Assembly (NCBI RefSeq): GCF_030053155.1
Contig: NZ_CP125642.1
Span: 372,001-436,000, forward strand
DNA length: 64,000 nt
Direction: 5' to 3'
Origin: Rhizobium sp. BT03
GTDB taxonomy: Bacteria > Pseudomonadota > Alphaproteobacteria > Rhizobiales > Rhizobiaceae
Shown here: piece by piece, positions 1,562 through 57,301 of the stretch
Layout of the letters: the number at the start of each line of letters is the position of its first letter
Numbering within the stretch: the stretch's first letter is position 1
Position numbers and translations under genes: made by a program
The notes under the pieces: generated by a model
What the model was told of the DNA's origin: nothing
What the model saw: the letters and a program-made list of their open reading frames with translations, nothing else
Database searches by the model: none

Positions 1562-1565
1562 CCAC

Positions 1566-2396: not shown

Positions 2397-2460
2397 TGAC
2401 TGAGCCGAAATTGCTCAGGATCGCGCGAATATCGATGATGCGGCGCGCACGCAGAGGTAA

Positions 2461-3683: not shown

Positions 3684-3705
3684 GGATTGCTCGTTGCGTG
3701 GTCGC

Positions 3706-3839: not shown

Positions 3840-3874
3840 CTTCTTGCACGGCACTCTCCGCCTCCAGAACCCCC

Positions 3875-5238: not shown

Positions 5239-5247
5239 TTTCCTCCC

Positions 5248-5649
5248 TCAGGCCGCCTTTTCGGCGTCCATTTGTTCAAAGGCCTGCTTGGCGATCTTGA
5301 TCGCATGATTGGCGGCGGGAACGCCGGCATAGATCGCCACATGCAAGAGCGCCTCGCAGACATCCTCGCGGGTCGCACCTGTGTTGGCGGTGGCGCGCAC
5401 ATGCATGGCAACCTCGTCGTCCTGGCCGAGTGCCGCCAGCAGCGCGATGGTGACGATCGAGCGCTCGCGTTTGCTCAGCCCCGGGCGCGACCAGACATGG
5501 CCCCAGGCGGCTTCGGTGATCAGCTCCTGGAAGGGCCGGTCGAACTCGGTCGCCGCGGCCGCAGCACGGTCGACATGGGCGTCGCCGAGCACGGCGCGGC
5601 GGGTCGCCATGCCTTGCCGGTAACGCTCGGAGGAGGCGGTCTCGTTCAT
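5248..5649 (-). CDS. pcaC: 4-carboxymuconolactone decarboxylase
   Basis: 133-residue protein of the carboxymuconolactone decarboxylase / AhpD-like fold, which turns 4-carboxymuconolactone into beta-ketoadipate enol-lactone. Typical blocks are MATRRAVLGDAHVDRA, WSRPGLSKRERSIVTIA and HVRATANTGATREDV...LLHVAIYAGVPAANHA, with the proton-relay histidine in HVRA. The frame remains open upstream into pcaD, but the start at 5649 overlaps the pcaD stop by four bases and gives the normal family length. It stands as a separate gene; in some other bacteria it is fused with PcaD. Confidence 0.96.
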   Translation of the reverse strand: MNETASSERYRQGMATRRAVLGDAHVDRAAAAATEFDRPFQELITEAAWGHVWSRPGLSKRERSIVTIALLAALGQDDEVAMHVRATANTGATREDVCEALLHVAIYAGVPAANHAIKIAKQAFEQMDAEKAA

Positions 5650-41792: not shown

Positions 41793-43163
41793 ATGGCAGC
41801 AAATCCCAAGATTACATTCATCGGAGCAGGCTCCACCGTTTTCATGAAGAACATCATCGGCGACGTGTTGCAGCGTCCGGCGCTGTCGGGCGCGACGATC
41901 GCGCTGATGGATCTCAACCCGCAGCGGCTTGAGGAAAGCGCTATCGTCGTCAACAAGCTGATCTCGACGCTCGGGGTCAAGGCCAAGGCAGAGACCTATT
42001 CCGACCAGCGCAAGGCGCTTGCCGGCGCCGATTTCGTCGTCGTCGCCTTCCAGATCGGCGGCTATGAGCCCTGCACCGTCACCGATTTCGAGGTGCCGAA
42101 GAAATACGGGCTGCGCCAGACGATCGCCGATACGCTGGGCGTCGGCGGCATCATGCGGGGCTTACGCACCGTGCCGCATCTCTGGAAGGTCTGCGAGGAC
42201 ATGCTCGCCGTCTGCCCCGAGGCGATCATGCTGCAATATGTCAACCCGATGGCGATCAACACCTGGGCGATATCGGAGAAATACCCCACCATCCGCCAGG
42301 TCGGCCTCTGCCACTCAGTGCAGGGCACGGCGATGGAGCTCGCCCACGACCTCGACATTCCCTACGAGGAAATCCGCTACCGCGCCGCCGGCATCAATCA
42401 CATGGCCTTCTATCTCAAATTCGAGCATCGCCAGGCCGACGGCTCCTACCGCAACCTCTATCCCGATCTGGTGCGCGGCTATCGCGAGGGTAGGGCGCCG
42501 AAGCCCGGCTGGAACCCGCGCTGCCCGAACAAGGTGCGTTACGAGATGCTGACGCGGCTCGGCTATTTCGTCACCGAAAGCTCGGAGCATTTCGCCGAAT
42601 ACACGCCCTATTTCATCAAGGAGGGCCGCGACGACCTGATCGAGAAATTCGGCATTCCGCTCGATGAATATCCCAAACGCTGCATCGAGCAGATCGAACG
42701 CTGGAAGGGCCAGGCGGAGGCCTATCGCAGCGCCGACAAGATCGAGGTGACGCCCTCGAAGGAATACGCCTCCTCGATCATCAACTCGGTCTGGACCGGC
42801 GAGCCCTCGGTGATCTACGGCAACGTCCGCAACAATGGCTGCATCACCTCGCTGCCGGAGAATTGCGCCGCCGAAGTGCCCTGCCTGGTCGACGCCTCCG
42901 GCATCCAGCCGACCTTCATCGGCGACCTGCCGCCGCAGCTGACCGCGCTGATCCGCACCAATATCAACGTCCAGGAATTGACGGTGCAGGCGCTGATGAC
43001 CGAAAATCGCGAGCACATCTACCACGCCGCGATGATGGACCCGCACACCGCAGCCGAACTCGACCTCGACCAGATCTGGTCGCTGGTCGACGACCTGCTC
43101 GCCACCCACGGCGACTGGCTGCCGGAATGGGCCCGCACATCCAACAAAGTTAAAGCCGCCTGA
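41793..43163 (+). CDS. agaL2: Alpha-galactosidase, glycoside hydrolase family 4 (second)
   Basis: 456-residue GH4 enzyme, a paralogue of agaL1 at the other end of the operon. GAGSTVFMKN is the dinucleotide-binding loop, LQYVNPMAINTW the substrate loop; metal ligands are the cysteine of GLCHSVQG and histidine of GINHMAFY. GGAGG lies five bases ahead of the ATG at 41793. It is closer to MelA of enterobacteria in length than AgaL1. Different sugar preference of the two enzymes is likely but not readable. A strong terminator follows. Confidence 0.9.
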   Translation: MAANPKITFIGAGSTVFMKNIIGDVLQRPALSGATIALMDLNPQRLEESAIVVNKLISTLGVKAKAETYSDQRKALAGADFVVVAFQIGGYEPCTVTDFEVPKKYGLRQTIADTLGVGGIMRGLRTVPHLWKVCEDMLAVCPEAIMLQYVNPMAINTWAISEKYPTIRQVGLCHSVQGTAMELAHDLDIPYEEIRYRAAGINHMAFYLKFEHRQADGSYRNLYPDLVRGYREGRAPKPGWNPRCPNKVRYEMLTRLGYFVTESSEHFAEYTPYFIKEGRDDLIEKFGIPLDEYPKRCIEQIERWKGQAEAYRSADKIEVTPSKEYASSIINSVWTGEPSVIYGNVRNNGCITSLPENCAAEVPCLVDASGIQPTFIGDLPPQLTALIRTNINVQELTVQALMTENREHIYHAAMMDPHTAAELDLDQIWSLVDDLLATHGDWLPEWARTSNKVKAA

Positions 43164-43191
43164 CCTTTTTCTCCCGGGTTAGGCGTCAAAG

Positions 43192-43225
43192 AGCCCCGCG
43201 GTGTGGCAACGACCGCGGGGCTTTT
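43192..43225 (+). terminator. Rho-independent terminator of the agp operon
   Basis: Stem AGCCCCGCGGT / ACCGCGGGGCT of eleven bases (an internal register may vary by one) with a nine-base loop and a TTTT tail, 28 bases after agaL2. It closes the operon and marks the border to the accessory region. Confidence 0.88.
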
Positions 43226-43299
43226 GCATCGAGGGATGCGCGCCGGCATTCATTTGCCGGAAGTCTAAATCCCCCGACCCATCGAGTTGCTCGTCGTCA

Positions 43300-43560
43300 T
43301 CGCCTTCCCAGGGCGAAGGCATCGAGGTGCGATTGGCCGAAGGCACCGGCATCCAACACTTCAATTCCGGCTCGGCATATTCGATGATGTGCCCGGGCGG
43401 AGAATCCGACGCGCGCCAGCCTAATTCTGCGAACTGATCGCATGCGACCAATAAGCGAGGTCAACCTCCGCCCCTGCTCGGACGCCCGGATCGTCACCAG
43501 GATCCGGCTGCCGTCCTTCGGTGCACTTGCCATCTGGCGCCAGCGATCTGGGTCGTCCAT
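43300..43560 (-). pseudogene. Decayed small gene (DUF551-like), two frameshifts
   Basis: Three reading frames in succession on the minus strand give one plausible protein. The first is MDDPDRWRQMASAPKDGSRILVTIRASEQG (43560 to about 43470). The second is EVDLAYWSHAISSQN and the third is LGWRASDSPPGHIIEYAEPELKCWMPVP. The pattern W..M.SAPKDG.RIL ... AYW ... W....WMP.P is that of the short phage/plasmid proteins grouped around DUF551. Two frame changes, near 43468 and 43443, break it. It is non-functional as read. Confidence 0.6.
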
Positions 43561-43631
43561 CGATTTTCCTCCTGCCTTGCTGCTGGGGCGAGTGTTGCCT
43601 CGTCGTCGGAGGTGGTCAACTCAAACTTTGT

Positions 43632-44279
43632 GGGAGCCGTCATCTATCGCGGCAGAGCTAGCGGCGATCGACGCGGTACTCGCCCGTTCTGACGCCGCTA
43701 TCGCCGAGGCCCAGACGCCCGAGCGCCTCGGCAGGATTGACAAGGATCCGCTCGTTTATGATCTCGACTGGGACAGGATGAACGCCTTGCTGAATGGCGC
43801 ACGACAGTCGGTGAGACTGAAGGCTTGCCGCCAGTGCTGCGAGCGATCATCGCCCTCGACGCCTGGAGCGTGCTGCAGGTCCTGCGGCACGCGCCGTGGT
43901 TTGGCCGGCTGCTCATCTCGCCGGGTTCAATCTCGGCCTCAAATCAATATCTGTGGATCGTCGCCGACATCGCCACCGAGACACGCGCCTTGCCGCTATC
44001 CTTGGTGGCCTCGCCGCGGCTGCCGAACTTGGCCTCAGAGAGCATGATCGGTTGTCGCTGCTGCGGCAAATGATGGAACGGCGGCTGGCCGGCTGGCGGG
44101 CGTCGTCAAAGCTGCCGGCCCTCGTCGAGCTCGTCATGTGCCGGCCACTGGTGTCGGCCGGGCATGGTCTCCGAAACCCTTGACGTGACACCGCAGGCGG
44201 CGCTCCGGATGGTCGGCGAGCTTGGGCTCAGGGAGTGACCGGGAGGGGGAGGTTTCGGGCGTGGGGGGCCTTTAGATAA
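43632..44279 (+). pseudogene. Decayed RHE_PE00001 (DUF1612/HTH) family gene
   Basis: Pieces in different frames match the order of this rhizobial plasmid family. They are SSIAAELAAIDAVLARSDAAI (43640-43700), DLDWDRMNALLNGARQS (near 43765), LPPVLRAIIALDAWSVLQVL (near 43835), FNLGLKSI (43927), and RLAGWRASSKLPALVELVM with MCRPLVS (44080-44160). The last is DVTPQAALRMVGELGL, then VTGRGRFRAWGAF ending at TAA 44279. At least three frame changes and an internal deletion between the first two pieces are needed. The gene is dead. Intact members are regulators or partition-linked proteins of unknown function. Confidence 0.7.
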
Positions 44280-44399
44280 GATGCAATTTCAATTGAGCGT
44301 CTCCGAGGAGATCACACGGTAAGTAAAATCGTGTTCCCGATAAAAATCACTTGATGGTTGCATAGCTGTAAAATAGTAGATGTACTTTGAGGGGACGCA

Positions 44400-44525
44400 A
44401 TGAGGAAGCTGAGAAAAACAATGTTGCCGTATGCGGCAATTGGTGACGACTTGTGCGCGTGCATGAATCACGCCACCGTTGCAACTGATCTCAAACCTTC
44501 ACTTGCTCTAATTTTCTGGCCATGA
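44400..44525 (+). CDS. 41-residue leader ORF coupled to the nuclease gene
   Basis: Short frame starting MRKLRKTMLPYAAIGDD and ending LALIFWP. It has GAGGGG five bases ahead of its ATG, while the downstream nuclease start (44522) has no Shine-Dalgarno sequence and overlaps this stop codon as ATGA, the same coupling as in the two following junctions. That makes translation of this frame likely. The peptide is basic at the N-terminus and hydrophobic at the C-terminus. It could be a true small component or only a translational leader. No similarity recognised. Confidence 0.5.
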   Translation: MRKLRKTMLPYAAIGDDLCACMNHATVATDLKPSLALIFWP

Positions 44526-45703
44526 GCGAGGTGGTTACAGAAATTGGTCCATCAGAGGCGTCTTGGCCATCGATTGATGACGCGAAGCCTGATGAAGAAG
44601 GGGGGCCCGTAGCTCGGACTGGTTTCAATTATCAAGACGAGATCGCTGTCGGCTTCCTTATCGAAATGCTGGAGCAACCGGAACTACTAAAGGTTCATTG
44701 CGAAACTCACGACGACATCGTGTTAATTCGCCAGGCAAACGGTGTTGCCCATCGAACTGCCGAGTATGTCCAGGTTAAAGCGAGCGAACAGGACAAACTT
44801 TGGTCCGTAGCCGATCTCTGCCAACGTAAGAAGACCAAGGTGGGTTCCTCCATCTTCGAGATTTCTCTTTCACGAGACAAGCATGAAGAGACTTCATTGT
44901 TTAGGTTGGTCACGCTGCGACCTGTAGTCACCGCCTTGGAACCTCTGACGTATGCATTAGAACCCCCCGGCCGATCCCTGGATTCCCAAGGAGTAATGGC
45001 TCTTTCCACCGAGCTTGAGTCCCGCTTTCCCGGCGTTTGCTCGCCAAAGGGGAATGGAGCGCGCTTCTGGGTCCAGAATTGCACATGGGATCAGCGGCAC
45101 AGCGAGGAAGCTGTTCGGAAAGATAATCTTCTCCGACTGATCCGATTGAGCGTGCGAGAGGGGCGTCCGCTGCTCGTTGAGCCGGCCGAAGTTCTATTGC
45201 TCGAGCTGCGGTCGATCGCAAAGACTGCCGGGGATGCCAAATGGCAACCTGATCGCGACAAAAAGATAGTCTCACGACAGCAGCTTCGCGCTTGGTGGGA
45301 TAGGCGAACTAGAGAGCTCATAGACGGTGCGGCGTCAACCTCGGGCGGGAAGCTTTCTACGAAAATGGAGGAAGCAGGACTGCCCGACGAGCTCGTCGGG
45401 CTGGCGCTTGAGATGCGGAGAGCATATGCGTCCGAAATCCGGGTTGCTCGTTATTTGGAACCCAGCGAGGCAGAACGTCTGCAACAGCGAGTCCAGTCTG
45501 AGGTCGTCTCCCTTCGTGCGCGCTTCATCGCCGGCCAAGTCGATTTAGATCCGCTTGGATTCCACGCGCTCTGCCTGGATCATATGGACGCGATCAACGC
45601 CGAGAGACCTGCAGTAAGCGAGGACCGATCAGCTTTTCTGAAAGGCTGCATGTACGACATCGCGGATCGATGCCTTCTTAGATTCACGAGGCGCGCGATA
45701 TGA
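44522..45703 (+). CDS. DUF4297-type nuclease, putative effector of an ABC-three-component system
   Basis: 393 residues. The N-terminal domain (residues 30-150) begins RTGFNYQDEIAVGFLIEML and carries CETHDDIVLI and EYVQVK, the pattern of DUF4297/Cap4-like PD-(D/E)xK nucleases (probable E61 or D65, then Q84-V-K86). The remaining 240 residues are helical and lack a motif I recognise; they probably sense or dock. It is the first large gene of a set with a middle component and an SMC-like ATPase, each joined by ATGA overlaps. It probably cleaves DNA when the ATPase is triggered. Codon and base composition differ visibly from the agp genes, pointing to acquisition. Confidence 0.78.
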   Translation: MSEVVTEIGPSEASWPSIDDAKPDEEGGPVARTGFNYQDEIAVGFLIEMLEQPELLKVHCETHDDIVLIRQANGVAHRTAEYVQVKASEQDKLWSVADLCQRKKTKVGSSIFEISLSRDKHEETSLFRLVTLRPVVTALEPLTYALEPPGRSLDSQGVMALSTELESRFPGVCSPKGNGARFWVQNCTWDQRHSEEAVRKDNLLRLIRLSVREGRPLLVEPAEVLLLELRSIAKTAGDAKWQPDRDKKIVSRQQLRAWWDRRTRELIDGAASTSGGKLSTKMEEAGLPDELVGLALEMRRAYASEIRVARYLEPSEAERLQQRVQSEVVSLRARFIAGQVDLDPLGFHALCLDHMDAINAERPAVSEDRSAFLKGCMYDIADRCLLRFTRRAI

Positions 45704-46269
45704 AGTCGATCAACCGACTCGGTACCCAGGCGATGAGTCTACCGCTATCAGCGGATGACATTGTGGAGTTTCATGCCGCTCGTCTGCTGCTGTTGATGCA
45801 CCTCTGCGGTGTCAACGGCCGAATCGACGGGCTCACAAAAATGGCTAAGCTTGACTTCTTTGCGCGCTACCCGGATTTTTTCGATGTTGCTCGAGCTGCC
45901 GTTACGTCTTCGGGCCCTACGACCGAGCCAGATGTGTCTGCTGGCGAAAGCGTAGAATCGGCAATGGTGCGTCATCACTATGGTCCCTGGGACAGGCGCT
46001 ATTATCATGTTCTTGCACATCTCGAGGCCAAGCGCTTGATCACAGTGACCAAGGATGGAAAATCATACCGGATCGCTCTCACGGATTTGGGCCGGGAGCG
46101 ATCAAAGACCCTCGCATCTCGCCCTTCGTTTGCGCCACTGGTTGAGAGGATGAGGCAAGTTAAGAAGACTTTTGGCGGAAAAACCGGCACCTTCCTCAAG
46201 GATCTGATTTATCGACTGTTCGACGCAGAGGTCGGTCGGCGCCCCATGGGAGAGAAGATTAGTCGATGA
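45700..46269 (+). CDS. Middle component of an ABC-three-component system
   Basis: 189 residues, with a winged-helix-like layout. FHAARLLLLMHLCGVNGRIDGLTKMAKLDFFARYP is followed by MVRHHYGPWDRRYYHVLAHLEAKRLI and a C-terminal FLKDLIYRLF. The KLDFF..P, YGPWD and LE.KGLI-type pattern is that of the middle components of ABC-3C systems classified by comparative genomics. These are thought to link the ABC ATPase to its effector. It overlaps the nuclease and ATPase genes by four bases each. The biochemical role is not established. Confidence 0.65.
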   Translation: MKSINRLGTQAMSLPLSADDIVEFHAARLLLLMHLCGVNGRIDGLTKMAKLDFFARYPDFFDVARAAVTSSGPTTEPDVSAGESVESAMVRHHYGPWDRRYYHVLAHLEAKRLITVTKDGKSYRIALTDLGRERSKTLASRPSFAPLVERMRQVKKTFGGKTGTFLKDLIYRLFDAEVGRRPMGEKISR

Positions 46270-48179
46270 TAAAGGAATGTCTTTCGATCTCTCGCCTTGA
46301 ACGCCGTCATACTAATGGAAATGTCGAAGAGCTGATATTCCATAAAGGCGTGAATCTGCTGGTCGGGCGACCAAACACCGGTAAAACAAAATGGCTGCAA
46401 ACACTTGATTTTCTTCTCGGCGATCCAGGTGAAAATCCATTTGAAGGCGCTGAAGAGGCGGGCCTAGCAGAAAAATACGATGCAGCGGGCGCTCAGCTCT
46501 TGCTTGGCGACGAGGAGGTCCGCATCGAACGCCGATGGCGGGAGCAAGGCGCCAAGACGAAAGTCTTTGTAAACGGCGAAGGAATGCCTGCTCGCGAATT
46601 TCAGCAATGGCTGATGCAGCGCCTTGAGATACCGCTCCTCAATTTTCCCAAAGGAAATCCGATGTCAGGCCAAACCTGGCCGGAGTTAAGTTTTCGCATG
46701 CTACTGCGCCATATCTATCGCCAACAACGGTTCTGGGGAGGACTCGCTGATCAGCAGCCAGACGGCGAGCAACATGCTTGTTTGCTGCAGTTTTTGGGAC
46801 TCGCTGAGCGGATATATACTCCTGAATACGGCCGGTTGATCGGGCTGAAATTAGAGATCGAACGACTGAAGGCCCGACGGGAGCAGTATGGTCACACGCT
46901 TGATGACCTTGCGCAGGAGGTGCTTGCTCAGGCTGGTGTCACTGTGAGTGTCACACCGACGACGATTAAAGTGGCACAGGACGGCCTAGCTGCGGAGACG
47001 CAACTATTGCGTGAACGTCGCAACAAGATTCTCTCAGAGGGTGGAGAAAGCGCAGTCGGGGAAAAAGAGCGCGGGCACATTGCCGAGCTGAGTGAAAAAC
47101 GCGCCGAAATGTTGGCGCGCCTAGAGGTAGGGCGACGAAAACTCAGCGCCATTTCCGAGCGCATTGAAGAGCTGCGCCGATACCGTATCGATCTATCCGA
47201 TGAGCTCGATCGCATCGTTCGTGCAGAAGACGCGGGTGAAGTCCTGGCAGACTTGCGAATTACACATTGCCCAGCATGCGATCAGTCAATTTCGAAGAAA
47301 TCAGGCGATCCCTATCATTGTTTTTTATGCCACCAGAACCTTCCAGACGAGCCGGTAATTGAGGAACTTGGTTCTGTGCGCCTACAATTTGAAAGGGACC
47401 GGTTGTCGGGTGAGTTGAAGGAGGCAGATGAACTGCTGGATGTGCTCCGCCGGGAGTACCAAATGCTCGCGAAGGAAACGGCGGCCATTGACGACAGTTT
47501 TCGCTCAATAGAAAACGAACTCGTCCCCGCACGGCAAGCTGTTGCAGCATTTGTGCAGGAGGAGATTAGTGCGGTCGACGTTGCGCTGGGGCAAGCAAGC
47601 GAGCGTGAGCGGCAGATCCGGAGAATCGCGAGCGCGCATGAGCTCGGTAAAGATCTCACCAGGCAAATAGCAGAAAAAGAATCGCTCATTGAACCTCTAC
47701 AGTCAAAGCACGATGAACTCGCGCGGGCTACTGACTTTGAGGCCGCGGCGGCCCTACTTGAAGACGGCATGAATGCGTACCTCAATGCAATCAACGCACT
47801 TCGGCCGGGGGTGTGGCGCCATAGTCCGGTCAACATCAATCTGTCTCGATCAAGTTTTACGGTCAGAGTGGGAGCCCGCCGTTGGAGTGTTGCACTCGGA
47901 GGCACCGATACCCTTTATTTTTTGATGGCGTATCACTATGGGCTGCTATCTCTAAGCAGCAAGCTCGGCTGTCACTACCCTGGTTTAGCGGTCATCGATG
48001 TACCTGGGGAATTTTCTGGGGAAGCGGTCGAGGATAAGGAGAACTTCATAGTCCAACCGTTCATCGCACTCCTGAATCAAGATGAATATGCCGACTGCCA
48101 ACTAATTATGACAGGAGCATCATTCTCCGGTTTGGACGGAGCGCATTTTCAAAAGTTGACACATGTCCATGTTGCGTAA
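46266..48179 (+). CDS. SMC/RecN-like ABC ATPase with zinc ribbon (ABC-three-component system)
   Basis: 637 residues. Walker A GRPNTGKT is at residues 34-41. Two coiled-coil arms (about 190-330 and 370-500) flank a zinc ribbon with CPAC at 335-338 and CFLC at 352-355. The signature is a variant, LGGTD (544-548), and Walker B reads LAVIDVPGEF with Asp578. Unlike Rad50, whose hook has one CxxC per chain, this protein has both pairs and can bind zinc alone. The N-terminal P-loop and the C-terminal signature/Walker B halves must fold together. It probably detects a nucleic-acid structure and controls the DUF4297 nuclease. Last gene of its operon. Confidence 0.8.
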   Translation: MIKECLSISRLERRHTNGNVEELIFHKGVNLLVGRPNTGKTKWLQTLDFLLGDPGENPFEGAEEAGLAEKYDAAGAQLLLGDEEVRIERRWREQGAKTKVFVNGEGMPAREFQQWLMQRLEIPLLNFPKGNPMSGQTWPELSFRMLLRHIYRQQRFWGGLADQQPDGEQHACLLQFLGLAERIYTPEYGRLIGLKLEIERLKARREQYGHTLDDLAQEVLAQAGVTVSVTPTTIKVAQDGLAAETQLLRERRNKILSEGGESAVGEKERGHIAELSEKRAEMLARLEVGRRKLSAISERIEELRRYRIDLSDELDRIVRAEDAGEVLADLRITHCPACDQSISKKSGDPYHCFLCHQNLPDEPVIEELGSVRLQFERDRLSGELKEADELLDVLRREYQMLAKETAAIDDSFRSIENELVPARQAVAAFVQEEISAVDVALGQASERERQIRRIASAHELGKDLTRQIAEKESLIEPLQSKHDELARATDFEAAAALLEDGMNAYLNAINALRPGVWRHSPVNINLSRSSFTVRVGARRWSVALGGTDTLYFLMAYHYGLLSLSSKLGCHYPGLAVIDVPGEFSGEAVEDKENFIVQPFIALLNQDEYADCQLIMTGASFSGLDGAHFQKLTHVHVA

Positions 48180-48321
48180 TCTGGGAATTTTTGCCTCACC
48201 GGAGCGTTCGCTGATCCTCTGGTTGAAAGAGGTGCCCAGACCGCATTGAAAAATAATTCGTCCTGTCTTCCCATTTTGCCGTCCATCCCCGCAAAGTAGT
48301 GGAAAGGGTGCAGCAGGTTTC

Positions 48322-48852
48322 ATGGCAGACGAGGTCGAACATCTTTCATTGGTGGAAGTAGGGCGGTTGCTCAGCCGTCAGCGGCAAGCTGACTTACTGA
48401 GATTGGCTGCTCTTGCCGAGACGTGGGCCCGTGCCGCGCCTCGTCGCGAAGCGTCCGACTTGCTCAACGAGGCACTCGCTCGAATTCTTTCTGGTGACAG
48501 GCCGTGGCCCGCCAATGTTTCGCTTCACGCCTTCCTCTCCCAGGTGATGCGAAGCATTGCAAGTCAATGGCGGCACGAAGATATGCGCGAACCGCTTGCC
48601 GCCGATCAGGATAGCCAGCTTAGTGATAGCACCATTGAAGACGGCTTCGAGTTTGTTGACCTCGTCCAGCGCATGCGCGCAACACTCCTTGCTGATTATC
48701 TGGCGCTTGGCATTTTCGATCACATCATGGCCCAGACAAGCCGAAAGCAAGCATGTGATCTACTTGGCCTCGATACCACCGGCTACGATACAGCGCGCCG
48801 CCGCATGACCCGAGTTCTCAGGCGCCAATTCAAACCAGGATGGATCAAATGA
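48322..48852 (+). CDS. Sigma-70-region-like protein at the head of the SNF2/sacsin module
   Basis: 176 residues. DLLNEALARILSGDRPWPANVSLHAFLSQVMRSIASQWR (about residues 45-85) matches the region-2 core helices of ECF-type sigma factors, and the end (SRKQACDLLGLDTTGYDTARRRMTRVLRR) looks like a region-4 HTH. Its stop overlaps the helicase start as ATGA. It may be a true sigma factor for its own operon or a DNA-binding subunit derived from one. A sigma-like protein as part of a helicase/GHKL module is unusual. GCAGG is the only weak ribosome-binding site. Confidence 0.7.
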   Translation: MADEVEHLSLVEVGRLLSRQRQADLLRLAALAETWARAAPRREASDLLNEALARILSGDRPWPANVSLHAFLSQVMRSIASQWRHEDMREPLAADQDSQLSDSTIEDGFEFVDLVQRMRATLLADYLALGIFDHIMAQTSRKQACDLLGLDTTGYDTARRRMTRVLRRQFKPGWIK

Positions 48853-51800
48853 CGAACGGCCCCGACACCGATCAGATCCTCGCGCTGATTGCGGAGAGCA
48901 TCCTCGAAGCAAGCGACCAAGAAATAATCGAAGCCGCTCGCTCGCACGGCGTTGATGTAGGCGCACTGGAGAGGAAGGTGCGAGAAATCATCGCGATCCG
49001 CGTCGCAGCGATTCAGCCAACACGATCGCTGCAAATCGGGGAGACTGTAGCGTTGCGATCCGATCCAACACGGATCGGCGTCATTACCGGCATTACGCCT
49101 AGCAATCGGGAAACACGGCTCAATGTGTTCATCGATGGGCGTCTTGAGACGCTCTATCTGAGCCAGGTTGTACGCGCCGACCTCACGCCGGGTGCCGTCC
49201 GTGCGACTCTGAGTGAGTTTCACGCGCGTCTCACGGCCCTCCAGTTGGCCGAGCCGAGCATTGCGAACTTATACTCATTGCAGGCAGGCCGCATCGATTT
49301 CATCCCCTACCAGTTTCGGCCGGTGCTGAAATTCATCCGTGCCGATCGTCCGAGATTGCTGGTCGCTGATGAAGTCGGCGTGGGCAAGACAATCGAAGCT
49401 GGCCTCTTGCTCCGGGAGCTGCAGGCACGACGGCCGCTACGTTCAGTGCTTGTCGTCTGCTCAAAGGCACTCGTGGCGGAAGAGAAGTGGCATCGAGAGA
49501 TGCGACGATTTGATGAGGAATTCGTGACGGTCGGTAGCGACGAACTCCGATATTGCCTTGATCAGAGCGATCTCGAAGGCGAGTGGCCGGATCGTTATTC
49601 GCGCGCCATCTTGCCCTTCTCGCTTGTCAATGAAAAGTTACTGCAAGGCTACCCCTCGCGGGGCGGCGGCCGCGGCCCCGGCCTCAGCACACTCGACACG
49701 CCGCCACGATTCGACCTGCTAATAGTGGATGAGGCCCATAACGCCCGCAACACGGACACGAGCTTGCATCAGGGCCTTCGCATCCTCGCCGACAATGCCG
49801 AGGCTGTCGTATTGATCACCGCCACTCCCGTTCAGCTGGGGACAGGAGACCTGTTCTCGCTGCTCAACCTGTTGAGACCCGATCTCGTCATCGACCGCCC
49901 AACATTCGAGCGGATGGCCCAGCCGAACGAAGCCATCAACGCAGCAATCGCGACAATCCGCGGCGCAGCTCCCGGATGGCAGGATGCTGCGATCGTACAG
50001 CTTAATGAAGCCGCGAGCACCGACTGGGGCCGGGTTATGCTTGCGCCGTCGCCAGAATATCGCAATCTTGTCGCGGCGACACGTGGTGCCTCAAGCGATG
50101 ATGACCGCGTCCGTCTCATCAGGCCAGCGGAGGCGCTTCACAGCTTCGCATCGATGATCAGCCGCACGCGGCGGCGCGATATCGGCAACTTCACTAGTCG
50201 AAAAGCGCGCACTGTCGAAGTGCCTTTCACGCCCGAGCAGCAGGCCGTTCATGACGATCTACTCGCCCTTCAGCGCGCCATCTATCTGCGAACGCACGGC
50301 GCAGGCCCGCTTGGCTTCCTGATGACAACAATACGTCGGCAGGCTGCAAGTTCGTTGCACGGGCTAGTCCCTTTCCTCGAAGATATCTTAACGCGACGTC
50401 TTAGCGACCTGGAACTCGTCGAGATGGAAGAGGAAGCGCTCGATCATGGTGAGGGCGAAATCGACGCTATCCGCGAGGAGATTGCGGCGATCGTCGAACG
50501 CGCACGCGGGTTGCCGCGCGATGATCCTAAACTGGCGGCGCTCATTGACATCGTCACTCAGAAAGGCGGCATGGCCAACCGCCGTTTGCTTGTTTTCAGT
50601 TCATTCCGACATACGCTGTTCTATCTGGACAAAGCGTTGCGCGCGTGTGGAGTGCGCGTGGGGCTTATTCATGGTGGGATAGTCGACGACGACCGTCGTG
50701 CTCTACGCAAGGCCTTCGCCCTTCCGCCGGAGCATCCCGACGCTGTCGACATTCTTCTTTCGTCCGAAGTTGGTTCGGAGGGGCTCGACTTTCAGTTTTG
50801 CGATGCGCTCGTAAACTTCGATATCCCTTGGAACCCGATGCGCATCGAGCAGCGTATCGGTCGCATCGATCGCTACGGCCAGACTAGCCAGACGGTGGCG
50901 ATCTATAATTTTGTGACCCCGGGTACCGTTGACTTCGACATCTTCCAACGCTGTTTGCTGCGTATTGGCGTTTTCGAACGTGCAATCGGCGGCAGCGAGG
51001 CGATCCTGGGCGAAATCGCCGGTCGACTTCAGGCAGTGGCCGATGACTTTCTGTTGACTGATGTTGAGCGCCAGGCCCGCCTGCAGCAACTCGCCGACAA
51101 TGAGATCCGCCAAATCATTGAGGCAGACGCACTTGAGGAGCGCGAGGCCGAACTGTTCGGCGTACGTATCGAGCGCACGCGCATGAATGATGAGATCGCC
51201 GAGGCCTCAAGCCGCTGGTTGGAGCCGGTCGCGATTGAACGGCTGGTCGGCCTCCACCTAGAGCGCGAGCTGGACGTTGGCCGCAACCCGATCAGTGGAC
51301 AGGGTCCCGTGAAAAGTCTCCGCCTCGCAGCGGACGCCCGCCGACGCCTTGTCCCACCACGAGCGCGTGGTACCCGACTTAGCCTTGCGGATCGGGAGTG
51401 GGAAACATGGCTGCGCGGTGACCAACAAACGCTTGCTTTAACCTTCGATCGCGAAGCTGCCAACGAGGACCGTTCGCTAGCTTTCATCACGCCCGTACAC
51501 CCTCTCACTCAGGCAGCCGCGCGGTCATTCGCCGGCGACGAGGAAGTGGTGGTGACGCTACGCGTGAAAGACCCGACACTTCCTCTCGGGGATCACGCCT
51601 TTGCAATCTACCAATGGCAGATGCGCGGACTTCGCGAGGATGCGATGCTTGTGCCCGTTGTCGAGGATTCGACTGTCGGCGCTGCGTTTATGGATGTGTT
51701 CGCGACAGCGATTGATGCTTCCGACGTGGCACCCCCCGATAGTGCTACGATCGAAGGGCTCGAAAGCTGGCATCATGAGCTTTGGACCCGACGGCGTGCC

Positions 51801-52058
51801 GCACACGTTGCCGAGGCGGGCGAGATCGCGCGATTTCGGCGCGACAGCTTGGCGGCCAGCCATAGAGCCCGTGTCGCAATTTTAGAGGAACAACTCGCGG
51901 CCGCGTCCGAAGATCGCATCCGACGGATGCGCGCCGGCCAGCTCGCCCGCGCCAACGCAGACCATCAGGAGGCACTTGAGGGCCTCATGGCCGCGGAGCG
52001 GCGTGCCGATATCCTTCCCCGCCGCGTCGCCTCGGGCACGCTCAGAGTGGAGCATTGA
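48849..52058 (+). CDS. SNF2-family helicase of a three-gene accessory module
   Basis: 1069 residues, SWI2/SNF2 type, RapA-like. Motif I is ADEVGVGKTIEAG with Lys180, motif II VDEAHNAR (Asp294-Glu295), motif III LITATPVQ; the second RecA lobe has SSEVGSEGLDFQFCDALVNFD and RIEQRIGRIDRYGQ. The N-terminal 130 residues hold an SH3-like segment (IGETVALRSDPTRIGVITGI), and the C-terminal 350 are helical with a coiled coil. I prefer the ATG at 48849 (ATGA overlap) to that at 48840. It likely translocates on double-stranded DNA. It lacks the neighbours of DISARM (drmA, B, C, methyltransferase), so it is not that system. Confidence 0.85.
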   Translation: MTNGPDTDQILALIAESILEASDQEIIEAARSHGVDVGALERKVREIIAIRVAAIQPTRSLQIGETVALRSDPTRIGVITGITPSNRETRLNVFIDGRLETLYLSQVVRADLTPGAVRATLSEFHARLTALQLAEPSIANLYSLQAGRIDFIPYQFRPVLKFIRADRPRLLVADEVGVGKTIEAGLLLRELQARRPLRSVLVVCSKALVAEEKWHREMRRFDEEFVTVGSDELRYCLDQSDLEGEWPDRYSRAILPFSLVNEKLLQGYPSRGGGRGPGLSTLDTPPRFDLLIVDEAHNARNTDTSLHQGLRILADNAEAVVLITATPVQLGTGDLFSLLNLLRPDLVIDRPTFERMAQPNEAINAAIATIRGAAPGWQDAAIVQLNEAASTDWGRVMLAPSPEYRNLVAATRGASSDDDRVRLIRPAEALHSFASMISRTRRRDIGNFTSRKARTVEVPFTPEQQAVHDDLLALQRAIYLRTHGAGPLGFLMTTIRRQAASSLHGLVPFLEDILTRRLSDLELVEMEEEALDHGEGEIDAIREEIAAIVERARGLPRDDPKLAALIDIVTQKGGMANRRLLVFSSFRHTLFYLDKALRACGVRVGLIHGGIVDDDRRALRKAFALPPEHPDAVDILLSSEVGSEGLDFQFCDALVNFDIPWNPMRIEQRIGRIDRYGQTSQTVAIYNFVTPGTVDFDIFQRCLLRIGVFERAIGGSEAILGEIAGRLQAVADDFLLTDVERQARLQQLADNEIRQIIEADALEEREAELFGVRIERTRMNDEIAEASSRWLEPVAIERLVGLHLERELDVGRNPISGQGPVKSLRLAADARRRLVPPRARGTRLSLADREWETWLRGDQQTLALTFDREAANEDRSLAFITPVHPLTQAAARSFAGDEEVVVTLRVKDPTLPLGDHAFAIYQWQMRGLREDAMLVPVVEDSTVGAAFMDVFATAIDASDVAPPDSATIEGLESWHHELWTRRRAAHVAEAGEIARFRRDSLAASHRARVAILEEQLAAASEDRIRRMRAGQLARANADHQEALEGLMAAERRADILPRRVASGTLRVEH

Positions 52059-52059
52059 C

Positions 52060-55000
52060 ATGGGAACCTCATTTCACGGTTGGCTTAACGATCTGCGCGC
52101 GAGGCGCGAACGGTGGGTGGCGGCGAACCACGAGAACAACTTCGATCGCGGCATCTGGAACGCGACTGTCGACAAATATGCCGACCCCAGCCATTTCATC
52201 TTCGAACTGCTACAGAATGCTGAGGATGCCGGAGCGAGTTGGGTCCGGTTCGTGCTAGAGCCGACCCGTATAGTGTTTGAGCACGATGGTAGGCCTTTCG
52301 ACCGCGACGATATCGAGGGAATCACCGGTATCGGGAATACGACAAAGCTGGATGATGGGCACAAGATCGGTTGTTTTGGCATCGGATTCAAGTCGGTATA
52401 CGTCGTGACCGAGCGCCCTGAGATCCACTCATTTATCGAAGATGAGCCATTGGCCTTTGCGATTGAGAATCTCGTAGTTCCGCGGCTCGTTAAATCGGAT
52501 CATGCTGAGGCCAAAACGAAAATCGTCCTGCCGTTGCGCACCGATCGCGCCGAACTCGCGCTGACACGCGCTCGCGAGGGTCTTACAGCCTCAGGCGCCC
52601 GTTCTCTTCTATTCTTGCGGAATATCAAACGGCTCGAATGGACCGATGGAGCGCGTAAGGGGACTGCAGAGGTCACTGACTCCGATGGATCGGTACGTTC
52701 GATCCGCTCTCAAATGCCGGACGGGACCAATCAGCTCGATCGCTTCCTGATCCTAGCGCGCGCCGTCGAACACCGAGAGGGCCGCAAGCAATATGAAGTT
52801 AAGGCCGCGTTCCGAATCAACAGCGCCGGCGATTTGATCGCCGAGGAGGCTCCAACGCGACTTATGGTGTTTTTCGAGACCGAAGAAGTAACCGGCCTCC
52901 ATTTCGCCATTCATGGTCCGTTCCAGCTCACCGACAACCGCGGTAATATTAAACGCGAAGATAATTGGAATGCCGTACTGATCAATGAAATCGCTGGCAT
53001 GATTGCAGATGCGCTTCCTTCGTTACGTGACCGTGGGATGCTCAAGCGCGCCGCTCTCGGTCTCTTACCCAATGCTTCGGATGAACTGCCCACAACGTTC
53101 ACACCAATCCTCGCTGCGATTGTCGCCAAGTTCGCTGGCGAGGAGCTAATCCCCGTCCATGGCGGCGGCTTTGCGACGACAATGAATGGCATTCGAGGGC
53201 CGGCCGACCTTCGGGATCTCTTAGGGGAAGTTGGCCTAGCAGAATTTTGTCAAAAGCCGGATCGTCGCTGGGTTATCGCCGCGCCGAAGAACAGTCGCGT
53301 GGATGCATTCATTAACACGTTAAAATTATACGAATTCGGCTACTCGGAGTTCTTTTCATCGTTCCGGCATGTGCTGGGCGATCAGAGCCTCTTCGGCGAT
53401 AGAGACAAGCGTTGGCGTGAGCGGGGCCTTAAATGGTTCAACGCATTACCTGACGAGCAACTCCAACATTTCTATCTCGCATTGGAAGCCGCATGGAAGG
53501 CCCAAAAGCCCTCAGTCAACATCTCTGACCTGCAATTTGTCAGACTTGAGGATGGCCGTCGCCATTCCCCGCGACACGCGGTTTTCGCGCCAATCGATAG
53601 CGACCTAGACCCTGAAACCGAACAGGGTGAGCTGTATCTCGTCAAAAAGGCCTTGATCAGGCTCGGCCGCGGTCGAGGCAAGGATGTCGAGGAATTCCTG
53701 CGGCGAACGGGCGTTCGCGACCTTGATGAGCGGGCCTTTCTCACCGCAATAATTCGGACCAAATATAAGAGTGACGGACAGCAGCCCAATCGCGAGCAGC
53801 ATCTCCAGCATATGCGTCGTTTCCTTCGTTGGTGGAAGGAGACATCGGAGGTCAGCCTCTTCAACGGCGTACCGTTCCTTCGCGCTGGAGCGGACGCCAC
53901 TTACAAGGTTCCCGGCAACGTATACCTTGGACCGCCCTACCTCGAGTCGGGCTTGCAAAGCATCTATAATGACCAAATCGCGGGTCGGGATAAGGTAGCG
54001 CTGTGGGAGGGATATAAATCGCTCCCTCGGAAAGACTTTCTGGCGTTCCTGGAGAAATGTGGGGTCGAGAGCCGACTTGTAGTATGGTCGTCCTCTATTC
54101 CCTACAGCCATCCCAATTCAAGTGAACTTCGATACAACTGGGGAGCAGCTCGTTTTACTGGAACGGGTGTTAATACTGACTATCGCATCGATCAGCTTCC
54201 GGAGATGCTCGCACGGCAAGATCCAGCCATTTCAAGATTAGTATGGGATGCGGCGAACCGCGTCGGGGCATCAACGATGGTTGCCAGCTTCTCGCCTAAC
54301 CAGACCTACGCTGCGCGTAAGCGGCCTTCGTCGCTTGCGATCGGGCTGCGGGACGCTGCGTGGATCCCGACCAAAGACGGGCGCCTCCGTAAGCCGAATG
54401 AGATCACCCAGTCTGACCTAGCAAAGGGCTACACGGTCGGCGGAAACGAAGAATGGCTGCGAGCTATTGGTTTCGGAGAGCAGGATCGTCAACGTAATGA
54501 GCAAACCAGGGCACGCCGTCAGGCTGCAGAACTTATTGGTCTTCCGTCCGAACTTGTCGATCAGCTGGGCAATCTTTCCCCGGATGCCTTGGCAGCCTTC
54601 AGCGCAGAGATGATCCGAAATATTAACAGCCGATCGTACGAGCCGGTCGAGTTTCCGAACCGGGAAGCGGGCAATCCTGGGCGAAGGGCCGAACGGCTTG
54701 GAGTCCGCGCGCAAGCGGCGCCACATAAGACCTTTGAGGTCCGCGCGCGCAGCGTGCGCACTAACGACATGGAAAGCAGAAAGCTGGCGCGGACATATCT
54801 AGAAGACCATTACACGAATCCTGCCGGCGATATGGTATGCCAAGGATGTCACGGAAAAATGCCATTCTATCTTGCTGATGGCGCACCCTATTTCGAGGCG
54901 GTGGAGTGTCTTGACTCACTTGAGAGAGAGCACGCAGAGAACCATCTCGCGTTGTGTCCGATTTGTGCTGCAAAGTGGCGCCATGCTAACCCCATCAATG

Positions 55001-55185
55001 ATGGTGATTTGCGTGCGAGAATAGGCGCGGCAGCATTGCCGGAAATCATAGTTGAGCTCGCGGGTGAACCCTCTAAGATTCGGTTCACTCAAATGCATCT
55101 TGAAGACCTCCGTACAGTTGCGCGCATCGGCCTGCCGGGCTCCGTGCCGGCAACCGAAGCATCTCAGGCATTGTCCGGCAGTTGA
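52060..55185 (+). CDS. Sacsin-like GHKL ATPase with C-terminal zinc finger
   Basis: 1041 residues. The N-terminal Bergerat-fold ATPase has the N-box FIFELLQNAEDAGAS (Glu49, Asn53), the nucleotide loop VFEHDGRPF (Asp76) and the lid GCFGIGFKSVY, as in sacsin/Hsp90. A long central region of no clear similarity follows. Near the C-terminus two pairs, CQGC (927-930) and CPIC (966-969), bracket YFEAVECL and HAENHLALC, the frame of an HNH/treble-clef domain whose first His pair is replaced. It starts one base after the helicase stop. It is probably the regulatory or effector partner of the helicase, consuming ATP by conformational clamping; nuclease activity of the finger is doubtful. Confidence 0.8.
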   Translation: MGTSFHGWLNDLRARRERWVAANHENNFDRGIWNATVDKYADPSHFIFELLQNAEDAGASWVRFVLEPTRIVFEHDGRPFDRDDIEGITGIGNTTKLDDGHKIGCFGIGFKSVYVVTERPEIHSFIEDEPLAFAIENLVVPRLVKSDHAEAKTKIVLPLRTDRAELALTRAREGLTASGARSLLFLRNIKRLEWTDGARKGTAEVTDSDGSVRSIRSQMPDGTNQLDRFLILARAVEHREGRKQYEVKAAFRINSAGDLIAEEAPTRLMVFFETEEVTGLHFAIHGPFQLTDNRGNIKREDNWNAVLINEIAGMIADALPSLRDRGMLKRAALGLLPNASDELPTTFTPILAAIVAKFAGEELIPVHGGGFATTMNGIRGPADLRDLLGEVGLAEFCQKPDRRWVIAAPKNSRVDAFINTLKLYEFGYSEFFSSFRHVLGDQSLFGDRDKRWRERGLKWFNALPDEQLQHFYLALEAAWKAQKPSVNISDLQFVRLEDGRRHSPRHAVFAPIDSDLDPETEQGELYLVKKALIRLGRGRGKDVEEFLRRTGVRDLDERAFLTAIIRTKYKSDGQQPNREQHLQHMRRFLRWWKETSEVSLFNGVPFLRAGADATYKVPGNVYLGPPYLESGLQSIYNDQIAGRDKVALWEGYKSLPRKDFLAFLEKCGVESRLVVWSSSIPYSHPNSSELRYNWGAARFTGTGVNTDYRIDQLPEMLARQDPAISRLVWDAANRVGASTMVASFSPNQTYAARKRPSSLAIGLRDAAWIPTKDGRLRKPNEITQSDLAKGYTVGGNEEWLRAIGFGEQDRQRNEQTRARRQAAELIGLPSELVDQLGNLSPDALAAFSAEMIRNINSRSYEPVEFPNREAGNPGRRAERLGVRAQAAPHKTFEVRARSVRTNDMESRKLARTYLEDHYTNPAGDMVCQGCHGKMPFYLADGAPYFEAVECLDSLEREHAENHLALCPICAAKWRHANPINDGDLRARIGAAALPEIIVELAGEPSKIRFTQMHLEDLRTVARIGLPGSVPATEASQALSGS

Positions 55186-55339
55186 TTGGTGCGGGAACGG
55201 TTCACGGCTGAAGCATGTCGACCGCTGGGTGGAAGTCTAGGTCAAAGCGTTGTGAAACTGAACACCTCTGGCGCCTTGCAGCGGTTCAGGGCATCCTATG
55301 GCGGCTGAAAATTGTGTTATGGCAGTTGGAGGAATGCCG

Positions 55340-57301
55340 ATGCGCTGCTTTACCGTGCTTGGACCTTCGCAGACCGGAAAATCGACAGTCGTGGAAAAGC
55401 TCGGTTCGCTGGAGGGGACGCCGAGAAAATCCAGCTCCCCTTATGGATTGAACCTCACTGAATTCACCTTCGGAAACGAGGCGTGGTGTGCGCTGGATGC
55501 GCCAGGACCCAACGAAGCGTTGGCGCATGCGCAGCACGCGCTTCTTGCCAGCGACGCCTGCATATTGTGCGTTTCATCGGCACCCGAGGAGGCTGTGCTC
55601 GCCGCGCCCTATCTCAGGATCGTCGAAGCCTCGGGGACGCCTTGCATCCTCTTCGTCAATCGGATGGACGAACCGAGAGGGCGGTTGAGGGACGTGATCG
55701 CCGCGCTTCAAGACTACGCCAGCCACACCCTTTTGCTTCGCCAGATCCCGATCCGCGAGGGGGACAGGATCATTGGCAGTTGCGATCTGATTTCGGAACG
55801 GGCGTGGCGCTACCGGGAAGGCCAGACTTCGGCGCTGATCGCAATCCCCGAAAGCACTGCCGAACGTGAGCATGAAGCGCGCACCGAGCTCCTGGAACAC
55901 CTGTCCGAATTCGATGACTGGCTTCTCGAGGAACTGATCGAGGACCGCGAGCCATCCAGCGACGCGCTCTATGCCATTTCATCACGGGTTCTCAGGGAAA
56001 ACAGAATTATCCCGGTGCTGATCGGTGCTGCAAGTCACGGCAACGGCATGATGAGGTTGATGAAGGCGCTGCGCCACGAGGCGCCGCCGGTCGGGATCCT
56101 CAGGCAGCGTCTCGCGCAGACGGCAACTGTCGATGAAGGCAAGCTGGCGGCCGTGAGCTTCCATGCCTATCATCGCCAGAATGTCGGCAAGACGGTGCTC
56201 GTGCGCGCACTTGGCGAGGGACTGCGGCAAGGCGCATCACTCGGCGGTTCCAGCCTCGGCGCCGTCCAAAATCTCGCAAACGGGCGGTCCAATTCGGCGG
56301 TTCTGCCGGCGCCGGGGGATGTCTTCGCGACTGTTAAGTCCGACCATCTGCGCGTCCCTTCGCTCTTGATCCCCGGCGCGGTGATCGCCCCGCCCGAGTG
56401 GACGGAACCACCGACGCCGATGCTTGAAAGGATTCTGGTTCCGGGCAGCGAGCGCGATGAAAACAAGCTTTCCGAAACACTGGCGAAACTGTCCGAGACG
56501 GATCGCGGCCTGAAAGTGTTGCAGGAGGAAGGCACGGGCGCTCAACTCGTCCGCGCCCAAGGGCCGGTGCATCTGCGTGATCTCTGCCGAACGCTGGCGG
56601 AAGTCTTTCACATCTCCGTGACCGACCGGACGCCCAGCCCGATCTACCGCGAGACGATCGCCAAACCATCTGAGGTTCATTACCGCCATCGCAAACAGAC
56701 CGGCGGCGCCGGGCAATTCGCGGATGTGAAGTTGAGCATTCACCCCAACGAGCGCGGCCAGGGCTTCACCTTTGGCGAAACCGTCAAGGGCGGCGCCGTT
56801 CCGCGCAATTACTTCCCCGCCGTCGAAGCGGGGGCGCGCGAAGCGATGGAGAAAGGACCGCTGGGCTTCGAAGTCATCGATGTCGGCGTAACGCTGCTGG
56901 ATGGTCAGCACCATACCGTCGACAGTTCGGAACACGCCTTCCGGACGGCGTCGAAAATGGGGGTGCGACAGGCGTTTTCCGAAGGATCGCCCGTCTTGAT
57001 GCAGCCGGTCTTCCGCACGGAGTTCCACATCCCGTCGGTCTATTCAGGCAGCCTTGTCCAGATCGTCGCCGGTCTCAATGGCCAGGTTCTCGGCTTCGAC
57101 CGGGATGAAACCGCCAAGGGTTGGGACATCTTCCGCGCGCTCGTTCCGGGCGGCGCACTTGAAGATCTGGCGCGGTCGCTGCGCTCGGCGACGCAGGGCA
57201 TCGGTTATTTTTCCAAGACCTTCGATCACTTCGAGGAACTATACGGCAAGGAAGCGGACGCCATTGTGAGGGCAAAGGAGAAACCAGGCACCGCCCACTG
57301 A
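55340..57301 (+). CDS. EF-G-like translational GTPase with atypical G motifs
   Basis: 653 residues, with the five-domain order of elongation factor G. Domain IV/V blocks are clear: HYRHRKQTGGAGQFADVKL and the EF-G C-terminal IVAGLNGQVLGFDRD. The GTPase motifs deviate. G1 is GPSQTGKST instead of GHVDHGKTT, G3 is DAPGPNEA, and G4 is NRMD instead of NKxD; the switch regions are short. It belongs to the EF-G-like paralogues seen in Rhizobiales and is not the essential fusA. The ATG at 55340 has GGAGG seven bases upstream; an ATG at 55298 is in frame but lacks one. A role in stress or ribosome rescue is possible, not shown. Confidence 0.85.
   Translation: MRCFTVLGPSQTGKSTVVEKLGSLEGTPRKSSSPYGLNLTEFTFGNEAWCALDAPGPNEALAHAQHALLASDACILCVSSAPEEAVLAAPYLRIVEASGTPCILFVNRMDEPRGRLRDVIAALQDYASHTLLLRQIPIREGDRIIGSCDLISERAWRYREGQTSALIAIPESTAEREHEARTELLEHLSEFDDWLLEELIEDREPSSDALYAISSRVLRENRIIPVLIGAASHGNGMMRLMKALRHEAPPVGILRQRLAQTATVDEGKLAAVSFHAYHRQNVGKTVLVRALGEGLRQGASLGGSSLGAVQNLANGRSNSAVLPAPGDVFATVKSDHLRVPSLLIPGAVIAPPEWTEPPTPMLERILVPGSERDENKLSETLAKLSETDRGLKVLQEEGTGAQLVRAQGPVHLRDLCRTLAEVFHISVTDRTPSPIYRETIAKPSEVHYRHRKQTGGAGQFADVKLSIHPNERGQGFTFGETVKGGAVPRNYFPAVEAGAREAMEKGPLGFEVIDVGVTLLDGQHHTVDSSEHAFRTASKMGVRQAFSEGSPVLMQPVFRTEFHIPSVYSGSLVQIVAGLNGQVLGFDRDETAKGWDIFRALVPGGALEDLARSLRSATQGIGYFSKTFDHFEELYGKEADAIVRAKEKPGTAH

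Follow-up and report, generated by a model that had tools for sequence, protein, structure and literature searches.

A sigma-headed variant of a helicase-sacsin module, probably in the defense repertoire, in Rhizobium sp. BT03

The window analyzed here is a stretch of 64,000 nucleotides from Rhizobium sp. BT03 (contig NZ_CP125642.1, positions 372,001 to 436,000 of the forward strand). Our subject is a single operon at window positions 48322-55185, whose three genes code for a sigma-factor-like protein (SIG), a SNF2 translocase (HEL) and a sacsin-like ATPase (SAC), together referred to as the trio. An earlier interpretation of the DNA letters alone, the sequence-only reading, had delimited this three-gene module, linked its genes by an ATGA overlap and a one-base gap, and described intact helicase and GHKL motifs; the coordinates, the linkage and the motifs were all confirmed. 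The ATGA is formed by a second in-frame ATG of HEL at 48849, which overlaps the stop codon of SIG, and SAC starts one base past the HEL stop codon (52058 to 52060). The ratio of nonsynonymous to synonymous substitution rates (dN/dS) to near relatives was 0.03-0.14 in 11 of 18 gene comparisons, with dS saturated in the other seven. The features are collected in Table 1.

Table 1. Features of the trio and its surroundings, in window positions (aa, amino acids; ORF, open reading frame; HMM, hidden Markov model; nt, nucleotides).
Feature	Position	Strand	Basis or remark
SIG, sigma-factor-like protein, 176 aa	48322..48852	+	ORF; weak sigma matches, region-4 fold
HEL, RapA/DrmD-like SNF2 translocase, 1072 aa counted from first ATG	48840..52058	+	
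HEL residues 1-57, proposed sigma-partner module	48840..49010	+	hhalign to protein X; HMM scan
HEL SNF2/Helicase_C motor core, about residues 139-700	49254..50939	+	Pfam, motifs
SAC, sacsin/Hsp90-like ATPase, 1041 aa	52060..55185	+	NCBIfam, AlphaFold2 model, PDB matches
SAC GHKL nucleotide-binding motifs, residues 45-125	52192..52434	+	
SAC C-terminal zinc finger CQxC...YFEA...CPxC, residues 927-971	54838..54972	+	
Promoter-like element	48249..48294	+	A/T-rich run, TTCCC, 17-nt spacer, CGCAA
Lamassu operon LmuA (Cap4 nuclease), LmuC, LmuB	44522..48179	+	neighbor, outside trio
Variable insert with Lamassu and trio	43229..55233	.	left edge possibly ~43638

HEL contains SNF2 and Helicase_C domains (Pfam), and its GxGKT, DEAH, TATP and QRIGRxDR motifs are unbroken in an alignment of eight sequences. 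The closest solved structure by sequence is RapA (4.9e-35), a likeness that makes contact of HEL with RNA polymerase plausible by analogy. One passage of PMC12839542 gives a plan of Tudor, SNF2 and degenerate restriction endonuclease for both BrxHII and RapA. The HEL scan returned no relatives in viral contigs.

SAC matched the NCBIfam P_loop_sacsin model NF047352 at 90.9 bits (cut-off 50) and Pfam PF25794 at 66.4 (cut-off 32.8), and its sacsin/GHKL N-box and GxFGxGFK loop are invariant in 40 aligned sequences. The AlphaFold2 model has a mean predicted local distance difference test score of 85.5, and its best PDB matches are Hsp90 chains (1.1e-13). The C-terminal zinc finger is conserved, and residues 923-973 match the PADLOC model mREase_IV (2.6e-5). 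The catalytic histidine pair of what we take to be the HNH motif is present at this finger in no row of a 45-row alignment. SAC as an active HNH nuclease was consequently ruled out, the finger being HNH-like and without the pair, and so no active nuclease was recognized within the trio, HEL having been checked by domain libraries only.

The sigma likeness of SIG is drawn from weak sequence matches, from the names of its relatives and from the fold of its C-terminal half. SIG had no match in Pfam and matched an ECF-type (extracytoplasmic function) model of NCBIfam weakly (E 0.017). Residues 42-125 align with SigH, again weakly (E 0.077), in a colinear manner that spans region 2, which is divergent in SIG; residues 101-174 have a fold like that of sigma region 4 (helix-turn-helix). 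Some SIG relatives carry sigma-type names in their sources, and one distant relative (L034) showed Sigma70_r2 at 2.8e-4, just below the cut-off.

One scan covered one genome per species in 84,980 species, and its reach is the close relatives of the two patterns used. It returned 18 loci with a SIG relative. An intact SIG followed by HEL was found at 12 of these (L002-L013), with SAC behind in 11; the contig of L011 ends inside HEL. Two more trios lie on plasmids (L035 and L036). With the window included, HEL stands behind an intact SIG in 15 of 15 loci and SAC in 14. The junction is ATGA in 11 of the 15, and in L011, L012, L013 and L036 the HEL ATG precedes the end of SIG by 20 nt. The hosts belong to Rhizobium, Neorhizobium, Mesorhizobium, Ensifer, Pelagibacterium, Sphingomonas and Stakelama, with L002 and L011 placed in the Rhizobiales/Hyphomicrobiales. 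The distribution is patchy and partly plasmid-borne, and the trio is rare: 11 of 397 genomes in an even sample of the order matched the SIG profile, which scored E 6.6e-86 in the genome of BT03 itself and 1.8e-39, a split partial match, in the next. The check that had been proposed for the three families, their co-occurrence across genomes, therefore found the genes conserved together. We conclude that the trio is a real, conserved and horizontally moving unit.

The promoter-like element before SIG consists, in the window, of an A/T-rich run at 48249-48259, TTCCC from 48268, a 17-nt spacer and CGCAA ending at 48294. TTCCC lies 53-58 nt 5' of the SIG start in 14 of the 15 trio loci (ATCCC in L036), and in those 14 loci CGCA follows 22 nt past TTCCC, with the variant CGTA in L005. 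The A/T-rich run is found upstream across the trios, and the flanks of the element are unconserved. A distance of 22 nt between two blocks, start to start, is close to the ECF -35/-10 spacing, and the sigma-70 promoter consensus is unlike the element. A count matrix built without L036 scored 18.7-42.2 bits at the 15 trio sites; mismatches to the search pattern numbered zero in six sites, one in six, two in two and three in L036.

The 6.9-Mb genome of BT03 holds one perfect site, the one before SIG. At up to three mismatches there are 26 sites (one perfect, two with two mismatches and 23 with three) versus 10 for the reversed control, and the 64-kb window has a single such site, with 0.22 expected. 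Nineteen of the 25 weaker genome sites were examined (L086-L104). Eighteen are inside an ORF of at least 150 aa on either strand, and two of the 19 (L100 and L104) have an ORF of at least 100 aa starting 30-120 nt downstream; one weaker site, L087, scored 19.0 bits, on par with the trio site of L036 (18.7). These counts and positions point to the operon of SIG itself as the clear target of the element, and a wider regulon is possible.

At the six remaining loci of the species-wide scan (L014-L019) SIG is truncated or in pieces and an intact HEL is missing, L017 retaining pieces of both genes. The element is kept at five truncated-SIG loci, as TTCCC in L014, L016, L018 and L019 and as GTCCC in L015. 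The first four of these are Bradyrhizobium genomes, as are L017 and L021, which also have truncated SIG genes. Truncated Bradyrhizobium SIG genes behind a promoter-like element suggest past loss of the trio.

The beginning of HEL provides a further connection to sigma-like genes. A profile of the first ~66 residues was made from 11 of the 15 sigma-headed HELs (four were excluded by the anchor of the script) and searched against 5257 ORFs, a set rich in sigma loci. Beyond the HELs and the L017 remnant, seven matches were obtained at E < 1, and six of them are the gene, or its frame, directly behind a distant sigma-like gene (L027 5.9e-4, L038 3.4e-3, L033 5e-3, L034 0.025, L022 0.27 and L030 0.72). 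The seventh, L027 2498-2704 (0.28), is not behind such a gene. The SIG-profile matches that have an intact sigma gene outside the trios are these distant SIG relatives, and behind each of them stands a small gene, X, of 85-149 residues. In 11 distant loci (L022, L024-L030, L033, L034 and L038) X and the sigma gene share 4 or 13 nt, the kind of overlap seen between HEL and SIG in 11 of the 15 trios; the motif shared with HEL is hardly visible in X of L024 and L029. Comparison of the two profiles by hhalign gave a probability of 95 and E 2.9e-8 over 57 columns, of which the first four are partly dictated by the shared gene overlap. A search of 297 genomes from the order with the X profile, built mostly from those same sigma loci, gave four matches, each of them at a known sigma locus; HEL of the window itself did not match the profile at E 0.001.

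A set of sigma-like gene, X and ImmA/IrrE-like peptidase recurs in Alphaproteobacteria (L033 7872-9657, L034 7863-9666, L026 and L027). The peptidase is annotated behind X in L033 and L034, with Pfam M78 in L033. These operons, on the Cereibacter plasmid pDE (L033) and on a Fuscovulum plasmid, share with the trio a related sigma-like gene and an X that resembles the HEL N-terminus; they differ in that X is a free protein accompanied by the peptidase, whereas the trio has a DNA motor instead. The set on pDE adjoins SAVED and nucleotidyltransferase genes. No title among the literature matches listed concerned a sigma-X-ImmA operon.

HEL and SAC also occur without SIG. In samples of the class and of the phylum, HEL relatives at 1e-80 and 1e-100 were present in 4 of 385 and 5 of 398 genomes, respectively, the genome of BT03 included. 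Five other sampled genomes have a HEL-SAC pair (G461, G580, G824, G827 and G886, where SAC is broken into two ORFs at a contig end), G479 has a distant HEL without SAC, and G898 has a HEL fragment. No SIG was seen beside the five pairs, the upstream side not being visible in G824, whose contig begins at HEL. HEL-SAC is a module wider than the sigma-headed trio, and because such pairs lack SIG, SIG is not obligatory.

The HEL of L043 (in G461) starts with a Swt1-like HEPN domain (PF18731, 49.2 bits, cut-off 27.5), and by alignment or by eye the N-termini of the L037, L052, L053 and L054 HELs are similar to it; a HEPN-like start is not visible in L044 (in G580). PF18731 was found in 110 of the 120 best listed relatives of the L043 HEL, and at least 7973 of 7998 scored candidates passed the cut-off, the helicase alone being counted. 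In these HEPN_Swt1-SNF2 plus sacsin-like pairs the gene order is that of the trio, HEL is homologous to that of the trio at 47-50% identity (L043, L052, L053 and L054), and SAC has 27-34% identity, partly over fragments. The HEPN domain, assigned by Pfam in L043, takes the place of the proposed partner module of the trio HEL, and no SIG is present where the upstream side is visible. Likewise, the HEPN-headed HELs did not match the HEL-N profile, and no element above 8.5 bits was found in their loci. A fusion of Swt1-HEPN and SNF2 is listed in a part of PMC3710099, and the searched literature yielded no system name for the pairs. We find the unnamed helicase-sacsin pair in three settings, sigma-headed, HEPN-headed and BREX-linked (BREX, bacteriophage exclusion), and the HEPN-headed helicase alone has relatives in the thousands.

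The BREX link comes from a human gut contig (L037), in which HEPN-headed HEL and SAC lie directly behind PglX (3.1e-237) and PglZ (3.7e-236). This pair is possibly an undescribed BREX accessory pair. L046 resembles L037 in HEL and upstream genes, and its contig ends before SAC; the upstream genes of L047 differ. In the gut contig (L037 3-16141), PglX is in two pieces around another gene. At L044 3597-16325, a type IIG restriction-methylase-like gene is found a few genes upstream of a HEL-SAC pair.

Between the same loci HEL is more conserved than SAC or SIG, and the lower conservation of SAC would fit a part that faces a changing target. The HEL tree places L012 and L013 inside the clade of sigma-headed sequences, next to L011 and L036. 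The SAC tree joins L013 to the HEPN-headed L043 SAC (100 in the Shimodaira-Hasegawa-like approximate likelihood ratio test) and leaves L012 by itself. Uniting the 14 sigma-headed SACs as one group was rejected in the approximately unbiased (AU) test (p-AU 0.0004), and the same test rejected a grouping of the L013 HEL with that of L043 (p-AU 3e-48). The choice of groups followed inspection of the trees, which are quick ones with some long branches. As judged from these trees, SAC seems to have been exchanged between sigma-headed and HEPN-headed forms.

The neighborhood of the trio was examined in 29 neighboring proteins (PADLOC, Pfam) rather than over whole flanks, with the flanks of L011 and L013 excluded. 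Eight of the 15 loci are flanked by a recognized or candidate defense system (IetAS, Lamassu or ABC-three-component, Qat), and the trio is often found in defense islands. Matches to IetA and IetS are strong beside L002 and L008 and weaker beside L003 and L004 (IetS 5e-32 and 1e-30), and a QatA match lies beside the L005 trio. Lamassu precedes the trio in the window and, by similarity to the window genes (61-74% identity), in L006, and L035 has an ABC-three-component operon (PDC-M68 in PADLOC). Other neighbors are a HamB-like helicase in L006, a KAP NTPase in L002 and, downstream in L003, a pPIWI-associated nuclease and a TIR protein.

In the window, the sequence-only reading had placed a putative conflict system upstream and noted a foreign character, and both points held. 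The conflict system is a complete-looking Lamassu-family operon (44522-48179) directly upstream of the trio, with a Cap4-type LmuA that has HamA-like similarity. The G+C content is 0.54-0.61 in six 2-kb steps over 44-56 kb versus 0.60-0.66 over the first 44 kb, and the right flank (56-64 kb) is low too, at 0.56-0.62. More strongly, a genome of the same genus (G1099) has the counterparts of the two flanks (window 43227 and 55233) only 1.2 kb apart. At the same site another genome, G1105, has an unrelated insert of ~11.5 kb, with genes that look by eye like sugar metabolism, beside a stretch matching 43266-43638. Window 43163-55298, from an upstream gene to an EF-G-like gene, is an insertion hotspot, short in G1099, filled with unrelated genes in G1105 and with defense genes here.

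Overall, we regard the trio as an unnamed sigma-headed variant of the helicase-sacsin module, probably in the defense repertoire. The fuller statement, that the operon is mobile, controls its own transcription and probably acts against phages or plasmids, is evenly balanced in our judgment. Several neighbors weigh against a defense setting. The single scanned neighbor is a housekeeping gene in L009 (proline dehydrogenase) and in L010 (DNA polymerase III alpha), as is one neighbor in L005 (cytochrome bd oxidase). At the cut-offs, no PADLOC or no Pfam match was obtained for L004 3683-6922, L006 1569-2384, two genes of L008 and one gene of L007, and the other scanned neighbor of L007, a HEPN_LA2681 protein, also went unmatched in PADLOC.

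In the mechanism that we propose, SIG would be a sigma-type factor that reads TTCCC-N17-CGCA before its own gene, presumably as a promoter, and would drive SIG-HEL-SAC in a positive loop. HEL would act as a RapA-like translocase on double-stranded DNA, and its first ~57 residues most likely bind SIG, keeping it inactive or tethered, because they are homologous to X and X follows SIG-like factors in gene order. SAC would be an Hsp90-like ATPase with a structural zinc finger that joins HEL on foreign DNA, serving as the less conserved, exchangeable and probably target-sensing part. Engagement of invading DNA by HEL and SAC would then release SIG and lead to amplification of the operon. Since no active nuclease was recognized, the operon may act by blocking the foreign DNA or by recruiting a partner nuclease. 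The boldest part of this mechanism is that the DNA motor itself would be the anti-sigma factor, the HEL N-terminus holding SIG until invading DNA captures HEL-SAC and the freed SIG fires the promoter; we offer it tentatively and consider it possible rather than likely.

That SIG is instead a structural DNA-binding subunit of a SIG-HEL-SAC complex, with the element as an ordinary promoter or a SIG target site, is close to the three-protein machine first suggested from the sequence. One operon with overlapping genes is consistent with it, and a SIG docking module at the HEL N-terminus would suit a stable complex as well. However, HEL-SAC pairs without SIG were found in the sampled genomes, so this role was not supported; the element is unlike a sigma-70 promoter and was kept before five truncated SIG genes with no HEL behind, and we judge a structural subunit unlikely. 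Because SIG is tied to the promoter-like element and to the HEL N-terminal module, a role as regulator would fit better. The regulator might also be a degenerate sigma that acts as a local repressor or in an antitoxin-like manner, binding the element and keeping a harmful HEL-SAC low. The single perfect site in the genome and the divergent region 2 agree with such a role, but the ECF-like spacing of the two blocks and the colinearity with SigH over region 2, though weak, argue against it and make it quite unlikely. The RapA likeness of HEL, the lack of a recognized active nuclease and the housekeeping neighbors in L009 and L010 could also be accommodated by an operon outside defense, concerned with RapA-like maintenance of RNA polymerase or chromatin and found in islands because islands are permissive. 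Such an operon is less easily reconciled with the defense systems flanking 8 of 15 loci, with the HEPN-headed pair behind PglX-PglZ in L037 and with the patchy, partly plasmid-borne spread, and we consider it very unlikely.

It is most improbable that the trio is a form of DISARM (defense island system associated with restriction-modification), BREX or Tiamat, although its proteins resemble components of all three. DrmD of DISARM has a SNF2 motor like HEL and is the best PADLOC model for HEL (2e-101), with weaker matches to the BrxHI/BrxHII, DrmA and DpdE models; type 3 BREX has BrxHII, a RapA-like helicase as HEL is. The best PADLOC model for SAC is TmtA (1.1e-54, residues 25-783), which has no curated cut-off and belongs to Tiamat, with a sacsin/GHKL ATPase at the N-terminus as in SAC. 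However, HEL reached 311.7 bits versus a DrmD cut-off of 610. Among the seven proteins of the window that were scanned for systems (44522-57298), no drmA, drmB, drmC or DNA methylase was found, apart from the cross-match of HEL to DrmA models, and no pglZ, pglX or brx core gene; besides HEL, none of the seven matches DISARM or BREX models. Membership in DISARM and in BREX was rejected on these grounds. Tiamat is a single-gene system, whereas SAC follows HEL in the loci read. None of the systems in PADLOC or NCBIfam accounts for the trio; in these libraries it corresponds to no named system, which agrees with the sequence-only reading, where this exact combination was not a familiar one.

In the literature, neither the trio nor the HEL-SAC pair is described in the matches listed, which are mostly titles and the starts of abstracts and lie largely outside subscription journals. 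Nothing there combined BREX with sacsin, or sacsin with SNF2, a sigma factor and a defense system, and sacsin was connected to antiphage function only for AbiA. According to a part of PMC2292703, MORC-type GHKL proteins and SNF2 helicases occur together in restriction loci, and the main text of PMC12839542 has no occurrence of GHKL, Hsp90, Swt1 or MORC. The regulatory design of the trio was likewise not found in the literature searched (mostly listings).

If SIG is the regulator of a defense operon, as we prefer, the trio may be a rare example of an immune operon that comes with a sigma factor and a promoter of its own. Binding of SIG to HEL residues 1-57 would, if true, explain both the quiet state and the triggering of the system. 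Phages often attack the host sigma-70, and a motor that serves as anti-sigma factor would provide a self-amplifying immune switch independent of it.

Two observations concern genes around individual trios. Upstream of the trio in L010, a 1721-aa ORF (532-5697) has helicase similarity to HEL (32% over 86 residues). Directly behind SAC, L012 (16842-20234) and L036 (20742-24131) have a fourth gene, which combines an RNase H-like/PD-(D/E)XK part with an SF1-type helicase and is annotated as TM0106 RecB-like in L036; it is possibly the nuclease arm of some trios.

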